Shown here: in pieces, positions 25,526-27,290 of the stretch
Numbering within the stretch: position 1 is the stretch's first letter
Layout of the letters: the number at the start of each line of letters is the position of its first letter
DNA from: Calothrix sp. PCC 7103
GTDB lineage: Bacteria > Cyanobacteriota > Cyanobacteriia > Cyanobacteriales > Nostocaceae
DNA: 64,000 nt
Direction: 5' to 3'
Assembly (NCBI RefSeq): GCF_000331305.1
Contig: NZ_KB217478.1
Location: forward strand, 2,446,151 to 2,510,150
Made by a program: the position numbers and the translations under genes
The notes under the pieces: generated by a model
Databases searched by the model: none
Seen by the model: only the letters and a program-made list of their open reading frames with translations
What the model was told of the DNA's origin: nothing

Positions 25526-25657
25526 ATGACAGCAACCTTATCACCACAAAGTAGAGCATTTTTTAAAAAGATGTTGGAAAACTATTTAAAAAGGAAAGAA
25601 AACGACTGCGTACCATCATTACCCGTGAAGCAGTTAACGGTAACAATCAAATCTTGA
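25526..25657 (+). CDS. Very small ORF overlapping the recombinase 3' end (doubtful)
   Basis: 43 aa from ATG at 25526 (TATLSPQSRAFFKKMLENYL), a basic helix-forming start. It overlaps the end of the recombinase gene by 76 bp on the opposite strand, and much of its C-terminus is an antisense reading of that gene. Listed because the first half lies in otherwise empty DNA and looks protein-like. It may also be nothing. Confidence 0.2.
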   Translation: MTATLSPQSRAFFKKMLENYLKRKENDCVPSLPVKQLTVTIKS

Positions 25658-27000
25658 AAAGCAGGCGCCAATTCTTCTTTTGGATAACGGCGCCATTCAT
25701 CCTTCATCTTTAACACTTCAATATACAAACTATACTGACGCGACTGTGCATTATTTGCACTTACTTGTGTCAGTATTGCTTTTTCTAACTTTAATTCTTT
25801 TGACTTAATGACTGGTTCGTAGTCTTTGTCACCCAAGCGTTTTAGTTTTAGTATTTCGTTTTGTAGTTCTGTAATTTCTTGTGGAACTTGAAAATCAGGC
25901 ACCTCTTCCATTTGAGATGCCATAAATTCAGCTTTGCTGATTAGTGCATCAATCGCAGCGTCCACAGCTGCGTCCAATAAATAAAATTTACGCTTATCAC
26001 AAATTATTTTGCTACCTGCCCTATCTCTGGCGCCAAGGCATTGTAGATATTGGCGCCTCCACTCACTCCCTTCTCTCCCGTAATTGGTATACATTCTCAT
26101 TCGACTACCGCAGTGCCCACATTTACACAACCCAACTAAAGGGTTGCGACATTTGGCGCCTCTTCCTTTTGGATTTCTTTCTAGGATTGACTGTATATCT
26201 TGCCACTTATTAGAATCGATAAGCGGTTCGTGGTCACTTTCGATTATTATTTCTTTCTCTTTGTCTCGTGCAAATCTGTTATATCTCAGCTTCCCGCATA
26301 AAATCGGATTTTCCAGCCAAACTTTAATAGCTTTACCCGACCGTGGGAAATCTAACCACTGAATACGATTTCTTTCGCGTCCGTACCTTTTGCACAAGGT
26401 TTCACAAACTGCCTCAAGGGTTCCTAATTCTAGAAATAAATCTACTATTTCTAGTGCTACATCTTTAATACTGGCGCCAGTGTGTCCGTATTCATCGTTG
26501 TTGATAACTAGCTTATCCCCTTCTTTCTTGTAGCCAAATATTGCTTTGTAAGCTTTCTTGTTTTCTTGAAAAAATTTGTGCCCTTGAATCGAGGCATATT
26601 TATTTTTATCTCGAACTTGTGCCGCCATTGCTGCAAGGATACGACTAGTAAACAATCCGTCCGGTGTTTCTAAATCTATACTGGCGCCATCCATTGATAT
26701 TAGTTCGCACCCGTATTTAATCAATTCTTCCTTGGCTTGTTCCCACCCAAGAGGCGAACGGGTAAACCTGTCAAAACATGGGATTATTATTTTATCAACT
26801 TCTCCCTTCCTTACGGCGTCTAACACTCGGTTATATCCCGCTCGTTTTTCGCTGGCGCCACTTTCTATGTCCCAGTATATTTGTTCTTGTTTTAGTCCAT
26901 ATTGTTTAAGTCTTTCGATGTAGCGCTCTAATCCGTGTCCTTCGGTAAATTGTTTTTGAGTAGAAACTCTACAGTAGCCCAATGCCCGTGACAAATCCAT
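25582..27000 (-). CDS. Large serine recombinase (XisF-like excisase)
   Basis: 472 aa. Residues 1-145 are the resolvase catalytic domain with nucleophile Ser13 (YCRVSTQKQ) and the conserved arginines in CFDRFTRSPLG. Next is the Recombinase domain (ENPILCGKLRYNRF), a zinc ribbon (CKCGHCGSRM ... CLGARDRAGSKIICDKRKF) and a C-terminal coiled coil (EITELQNEILKLKRLG). This is the layout of large serine integrases and of XisF, which excises the fdxN element. The ATG lies 20 bp after the stop of the interrupted nifH on the same strand, with a weak ribosome binding site, so it may be read from the nif promoter and translated by coupling. It most likely excises this element in developing heterocysts. 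Confidence 0.88.
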   Translation of the reverse strand: MDLSRALGYCRVSTQKQFTEGHGLERYIERLKQYGLKQEQIYWDIESGASEKRAGYNRVLDAVRKGEVDKIIIPCFDRFTRSPLGWEQAKEELIKYGCELISMDGASIDLETPDGLFTSRILAAMAAQVRDKNKYASIQGHKFFQENKKAYKAIFGYKKEGDKLVINNDEYGHTGASIKDVALEIVDLFLELGTLEAVCETLCKRYGRERNRIQWLDFPRSGKAIKVWLENPILCGKLRYNRFARDKEKEIIIESDHEPLIDSNKWQDIQSILERNPKGRGAKCRNPLVGLCKCGHCGSRMRMYTNYGREGSEWRRQYLQCLGARDRAGSKIICDKRKFYLLDAAVDAAIDALISKAEFMASQMEEVPDFQVPQEITELQNEILKLKRLGDKDYEPVIKSKELKLEKAILTQVSANNAQSRQYSLYIEVLKMKDEWRRYPKEELAPAFQDLIVTVNCFTGNDGTQSFSFLFK

Positions 27001-27020
27001 AATTGTAAGCCGTAGTGTGT

Positions 27021-27290
27021 TTATGGAATAATACCACGGAAACCAGCGAGCATTACTTCTTCGAGTTCGAGGTCTTCTACGGCGCCGCGTTCAGCAGCCA
27101 AGTGTAATACGGTGGTTTGTGCCTTAGAGTGCAACATTAAACGAGTCGAGTCAGCTTTAGGGTCGCAACCTACAATCATAATTCGTTGACCCATTTCAGC
27201 CATTGCAGCCAGGGTATTTTGTGAGGTTGTAGACTTACCGATACCGCCTTTACCGTAGAAGGCTATCTGTCTAATTCTATCTTCTGACAT
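27021..27290 (-). CDS. nifH: nifH, dinitrogenase reductase, 5' part only (interrupted by the element)
   Basis: NifH is the homodimeric Fe protein that passes electrons to the MoFe protein using ATP. Residues 1-86 match it throughout: P-loop [10 protein letters not shown] (12-21), [10 protein letters not shown] (41-50), [19 protein letters not shown]. After Gly86 the frame leaves the family (IIP and stop) where NifH normally continues V-K-C-V-E-S-G-G. The DNA from there on belongs to the element. A good Shine-Dalgarno (AGGAG) precedes the ATG. The remaining codons must lie beyond the left edge of the window and be rejoined by excision. Upstream is nifU, as in Anabaena. Confidence 0.95.
27024..27040 (-). 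other. Probable recombination site (right/5' junction) within nifH
   Basis: The last codons that agree with nifH are ggtttccgtggt (27044-27033, minus strand). The sequence then changes to attattccataa. The crossover core must lie at or just before this change. A TATTC pentamer, the core known for the fdxN element, lies at 27031-27027. The partner site is outside the window, so the exact core cannot be fixed. Confidence 0.6.

Follow-up and report, generated by a model that had tools for sequence, protein, structure and literature searches.

The window analysed here is a stretch of 64,000 nucleotides (C7:2446151-2510150) on the 8.79-Mb contig C7 of Calothrix sp. PCC 7103, whose genome assembly comprises 11,584,393 bp in 12 contigs. 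On its minus strand, nifB, an uninterrupted fdxN-like ferredoxin gene, nifS and nifU lead to the first piece of nifH, which is followed on the same strand by the gene of a large serine recombinase (Table 1). The names nifS and fdxN are our assignments, taken from domain content and gene order.

Table 1. Features of the window at the interrupted nifH gene (positions are those of the window unless C7 is given).
Feature	Position	Strand	Remarks
nifH-253 element, portion in window	1..27032		whole element C7:2378226-2473187
Endolysin-like amidase	1568..2344	-	domain scan
Phage tail protein, 1202 aa	2715..6323	+	PHROG 2871, 1.4e-107
Rha-like phage regulator	13884..14654	-	domain scan
Prim-Pol primase	18940..20271	-	domain and PHROG scan
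DnaB-like replicative helicase	20273..21634	-	domain and PHROG scan
Terminator-like site just after recombinase	25515..25534	-	pattern only; number of such sites equals shuffle mean
Large serine recombinase, 472 aa (xis of nifH-253 element)	25582..27000	-	Resolvase, Recombinase and Zn_ribbon_recom domains; PHROG 95 integrase, 4.2e-66
attP-like inverted repeat, right half	27012..27036	-	pairs 16/25 with half adjoining nifH piece 2
nifH piece 1	27021..27290	-	first 253 nt are nifH; final codons Ile-Ile-Pro-stop are element sequence
Candidate -10 hexamer TATTAT	27028..27033	-	after TGG; 27 nt before recombinase ATG
GTGGT direct repeat at crossover, 5 bp	27033..27037	-	partner C7:2378225-2378221, outside window
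nifU	27533..28453	-	NifU_N, Fer2_BFD and NifU domains
nifS (class-V aminotransferase), presumed	28568..29785	-	domain
fdxN-like ferredoxin, uninterrupted, presumed	29910..30257	-	Fer4
nifB	30417..31880	-	radical SAM and Nitro_FeMo-Co

A nifH gene in three pieces and the element that splits it

The NifH sequence of piece 1 (89 aa, beginning MSEDRIRQ and matching Fer4_NifH positions 1-81 in a profile search) stops matching after Gly86 and runs into a stop codon at 27021, exactly as the initial annotation had read it. The missing 3' part, which that annotation expected to the left of the window, is present there. A second element, at nt 405, divides it in two: piece 2 at C7:2378226-2378059 (minus strand, NifH profile positions 79-134) and piece 3 at C7:2257717-2257295 (minus strand, positions 130-270). 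The gene is thus interrupted at nt 253 and nt 405 by two large elements of 94,962 bp (mostly left of the window) and 120,356 bp, and joining the pieces at GTGGT (nt 253) and GGCGGTTTCGCTA (nt 405) yields an intact, in-frame NifH open reading frame of 295 aa. As the three pieces are ordered on one strand of a single contig and join in frame, an assembly artefact is unlikely. The interruptions belong to a larger pattern in which six elements (nifH has two, nifD three and nifK one) spread nifHDK across about 287 kb (C7:2186568-2473440).

The joined gene aligns without gaps to the uninterrupted nifH of a genome of the same genus (G064), and 17 of the 19 codons that differ, out of 295, do so silently, which argues that the split nifH is still under selection and makes a decayed gene unlikely. 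A second, intact nifH-like gene, 84% identical, was located by NifH profile and coordinates at C7:3764817-3765677, so the split copy may not be the sole source of NifH; a further NifH-profile match at C7:4344462 is one that we take to be ChlL-like. The initial annotation had held that a separate intact nifH, with no 3' piece at the far end of the element, would speak against a split gene. An intact gene does exist, yet the 3' pieces exist as well.

The phage-like character proposed for the splitting element was borne out by tail, lysis and replication genes. The phage-gene scan covered the nifH-253 element alone of the two nifH elements, and within it a subset of 32 ORFs, the recombinase among them: 22 inside the window were compared with Pfam, 20 of these with PHROGs as well, and 10 to the left of it with PHROGs only. 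Besides the genes of Table 1, these ORFs include a sigma factor and, immediately outside the window on its left, a tape-measure-like protein of 3168 aa (L036 5812-15318, minus strand); a portal match was weak (1.4e-4), and no terminase or capsid match was obtained among the 32. The element is also unusual in composition. GGCGCC occurs 428 times in its 95 kb against 6.6 expected from base composition, a density of ~4.5 per kb compared with 1.0-1.7 per kb in three adjacent stretches that drops at the element borders; GCGATCGC is absent from the element, which encodes a C5 cytosine methylase (11315-12325, minus strand).

The recombinase, its sites and its relatives

Only 20 nt (27020-27001) separate the nifH stop codon from the recombinase ATG, and both the domains and the ORF coordinates confirm the large serine recombinase that had been called at this distance on the same strand. 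The recombinases of both nifH elements are intact and related to each other. A direct-repeat partner had also been predicted for the split, and GTGGT was found at the other end of the element, although a 5-bp repeat is weak by itself; at the nt-405 element the direct repeat measures 13 bp. Joining the ends of each element produces an inverted repeat around the crossover with 16 of 25 positions paired, a value matched by 5 (nt 253) and 6 (nt 405) of 2000 letter shuffles. For the joined nifH sites the counts are 12 and 10, values that 487 and 1856 of 2000 shuffles, respectively, equal or exceed. The half-site of the nt-253 element ends 11 nt before the recombinase ATG, which leaves the element almost no room for a separate upstream promoter region.

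The locus combines joinable gene parts, direct repeats at the element ends and a site-specific recombinase inside the element near one end, the marks of a heterocyst-type interruption element. The recombinase carries the three domains of large serine recombinases, with attP-like inverted-repeat half sites around a short core, and a search of solved structures with it returned resolvase-type matches only, which did not extend the interpretation.

Among 217 genomes of the cyanobacterial family, 19 (including that of PCC 7103) match the recombinase at an E value of 1e-60 or better, and none of these matches is close, the best identity besides itself being 52%. The protein forms a lone long branch outside the clade of nifH-405 recombinases, and other members of its family interrupt genes besides nifH. 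In wider genome contigs identity reached 51% over the full length, and 82% over residues 2-78 only (L073). The best full-length match in 50,697 phage records was to Ravarandavirus of Nodularia (e.g., KU230356; 43.3% identity over 97% of the query), and Nodularia phage records such as MK605246, in which the gene is annotated in two parts, reached 63.5% over residues 2-157. Like the nifH-253 element, these phages have a serine recombinase preceded by a dyad and a -10-like hexamer (L176 5828-6010 and L177; 15 of 25 pairs, counted without a shuffle control, and TATAAT); unlike it, they are free phage genomes. They may integrate into a host gene. When their upstream region was compared with nine nif gene stretches from the genus Calothrix, rather than from Nodularia itself, the best shared words were of 8-10 nt, which we took as chance; the 10-nt word, in nifS, lies at the dyad centre and was given no weight.

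Recombinase orientation and known interruption elements

We searched for nifH pieces in 21 genomes, namely 18 of the 19 matching genomes (G083 was left out) and three more of the same genus, and fetched 37 stretches to determine orientation; among the pieces left out are two from G191 and one from G032. At nt 405, all 14 fetched genomes, or 15 of 15 with our own, have the recombinase in sense behind the upstream nifH piece; these cases are not independent, as the genomes were picked for carrying a member of the recombinase family and the elements at nt 405 belong to a single clade. Between nifH piece and recombinase lie about 230 nt in G182 and roughly 50 nt in the other nt-405 loci inspected. 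Sense orientation was also found in 7 of 8 cases at about nt 792 and in 2 of 4 at about nt 147, where one of the two sense recombinases is frame-shifted. Fourteen tyrosine-recombinase matches divide into seven assignable to a nifH site (2 sense, 5 antisense) and seven outside nifH. Taken together, the 21 genomes show about nine break positions in nifH (near aa 33, 49, 66, 85, 101, 124, 136, 165 and 264; approximate, from protein matches), which exceeds the 2016 count of six variants. Pieces in opposite orientations in L151-L153 (G028) and L162 (G185) may reflect inversions at elements or assembly errors.

Both nifH elements of PCC 7103 carry their recombinase in sense. In its three nifD elements (near nt 235, 905 and 1386) and its nifK element the gene is antisense and adjoins the downstream piece, so that four of the six nifHDK elements of this genome have antisense recombinases. 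The recombinase family as a whole was found in sense in nifH and cox and antisense in hupL-like, nifB-like and ketosynthase genes. In PCC 7103 an insert of about 20.7 kb, its serine recombinase antisense, interrupts a cox subunit I gene (C7:3775505-3797652) about 10 kb away from the second, intact nifH-like gene.

A survey of heterocyst-forming cyanobacteria reported 19 nifH elements in six variants and named a nifH 405 variant (Hilton, Meeks and Zehr 2016, PMC4874684). The accessible text of that survey does not mention position 253; the nifH-253 element is probably already known and listed in its Table B. It shares with the surveyed elements a split gene, a recombinase near one end, a short direct repeat and in-frame restoration, and nothing in the part of the survey available places it outside that kind. 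The same text restricts the nifD 227 element to Rivularia sp. PCC 7116 and Calothrix sp. PCC 7103, places xis at the end of the nifD 895 element in these two strains, and credits PCC 7103 with a coxA3 element and 11 elements in all. Our genome agrees with these published elements at nifD near nt 235 and 905 and at the split cox, all with antisense xis. Of the xis orientations given there, 70 are opposite and 23 sense, the latter at the start of their elements. In line with this, we conclude that sense orientation is usual for serine elements at nifH nt 405 and 792 and not for interruption elements generally.

Anabaena sp. 90 likewise has a nifH in three parts; of the two elements between them, one measures 80 kb and contains the remnant of a prophage (PMC3542288, as far as its available text goes). 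Its parts measure 153, 273 and 444 bp and its recombinases lie on the opposite strand, whereas both are in sense in Calothrix, at nt 253 and 405. Outside the cyanobacteria, the accessible parts of two reports describe prophage-like elements in developmental genes that are removed during differentiation, in other host genes: the C. difficile skin element, which is removed by a large serine recombinase (PMC5025042), and SPbeta in spsM of B. subtilis (PMC4191935).

Promoter, read-through and the timing of excision

The initial annotation proposed that excision is coupled to nif induction, and took an independent promoter or a strong terminator before the recombinase as evidence against it. A pattern scan of the minus strand from nifU to the recombinase found no terminator-like site, as the proposal had supposed. 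A -35/-10 scan of minus-strand positions 27000-27300 found no promoter and missed the TATTAT candidate. We searched the 25 family members with a located start (that of L072 is uncertain) for hexamers TANNNT that agree with TATAAT in 5 or more of the 6 positions and end 24-33 nt before the start codon. Such a hexamer is present in 20 of the 25, counts that are not independent because the members are related by descent. Of the 14 loci first classed as nifH-405, 12 have it (shuffle mean 1.2), as do 8 of the remaining 11 (shuffle mean 0.8), and 0 of 1000 shuffles reach either value; nine other 10-nt distance bins hold 0-3 hexamers each. One of the 11, L066, really belongs with the nifH-405 loci; its gap is longer and it lacks the hexamer, which changes the split to 12 of 15 and 8 of 10 and leaves the total as it is.

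The distance from the hexamer to the ATG is 27 nt in the 253 element and 26 nt in the 405 element, and that to the centre of attP is ~4 and ~29 nt. This near-constant distance to the ATG and variable distance to attP point to a promoter rather than to part of the recombination site. Three of the four members antisense to their adjoining host gene also have it (L052 at a hupL-like gene, which we so named by eye; L065 at a nifB-like radical SAM gene; L067 and L069 at ketosynthase genes). Conservation in 20 of 25 members, including three of four antisense ones, suggests that the recombinase has its own promoter, with the -10 overlapping the recombination site, which is likely but unproven. An NtcA site was considered for the recombinase and rejected: GTAN8TAC occurs 20 times in the window (shuffle mean 14.15; 9 of 100 shuffles reach 20) and not at 27000-27290.

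Transcription from upstream probably continues into the recombinase gene once nif is on, by analogy with Anabaena variabilis and given the absence of an intervening terminator-like site. According to the available text of PMC4284476, nifB1 is the main source of transcription of the nif1 cluster in that organism, and nifH1 has no promoter. The stabilising stem-loop described before nifH in A. variabilis has as its counterpart here a modest fold only (z -1.84; 9 of 200 shuffles as good) and was discarded. The literature searched, largely without subscription papers, contained no publication proposing nif read-through into xis, and xis terms were absent from the text of PMC10287535.

How these observations translate into the timing of excision allows several readings. 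The one we favour, with fair confidence, is that a prophage-derived element of the heterocyst type in nifH at nt 253 is excised by its own recombinase, which is likely transcribed from its own promoter, with read-through adding to it. In the coupling first proposed, the recombinase would be expressed only from the nif transcript and nif induction would itself trigger excision. The sense orientation with its 20-nt gap agrees with this, as do the two negative scans, the nifB-driven cluster of A. variabilis and the 15 of 15 sense recombinases at nt 405. It is rather unlikely, since the -10-like hexamer is conserved, also in antisense members, the antisense recombinases in four of six nifHDK elements of the same genome need another route, and serine recombinases often need a partner for excision (PMC5025042, in the part available). 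Of the initial proposal, the phage element with a sense recombinase as its first gene stands, and read-through is plausible, more as a possible booster than as a proven switch. An extension of the idea, in which the transcript opens nifH stepwise, is unlikely: an mRNA started at nifB would supply xis-253, excision would join pieces 1 and 2 and place xis-405 under the same transcript, piece 3 would then be joined, and each excision would remove the recombinase gene just used, shutting itself off.

A near-even chance attaches to a partner-triggered scheme, in which the recombinase is made at some level in all cells from its own promoter and a developmental directionality factor, encoded in the element or elsewhere, times excision. 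The -10-like motif and the domains of the recombinase suit it, and in C. difficile skin, by the accessible account, the recombinase is constitutively expressed and a directionality factor times excision (PMC5025042). Excision of the fdxN element requires XisH and XisI (PMC4874684, accessible text), of which the PCC 7103 genome has 17 and 25 matches. These matches lie outside the nifH elements and do not adjoin them, no XisH or XisI match occurs inside either nifH element, and no directionality factor was found for nifH-253, in contrast to skin. The partner-triggered scheme overlaps our favoured reading, in which a further factor would likewise set the time. That the split nifH is a relic, its element never excised while the intact second gene does the work, is very improbable: that gene gives the idea its substance, and against it stand the silent codon differences, the intact joined frame and two intact recombinases.

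On the favoured reading, the nifH-253 recombinase would recombine the element ends (attL x attR) at the GTGGT core, restoring the nifH reading frame and releasing a circle of ~95 kb, presumably in heterocysts by analogy with known elements; the nt-405 element, with its related recombinase, would have to leave too. The recombinase gene adjoins its recombination site and would most likely use a short promoter of its own whose -10 overlaps that site. Transcription from nifB-fdxN-nifS-nifU and the first nifH piece would probably enter it as well, adding recombinase when nif is on, until excision removes the gene from the nif transcript. The time of excision would be set by a further factor.

The removal of prophage-like elements from nif genes is a classic programmed genome rearrangement whose timing is poorly known. 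The layout described here gives testable alternatives, an own promoter overlapping the recombination site and read-through from nif, and because one genome holds both sense and antisense elements, the models are separable by comparing excision timing within one strain. A phage origin, long suggested, gains support from the Nodularia phage relative and from the phage genes that the element carries. Were the stepwise opening of nifH true, the sense orientation of serine elements in this gene would be selected. Read-through, if it matters, would raise the recombinase just when nifH is needed and would end on excision.
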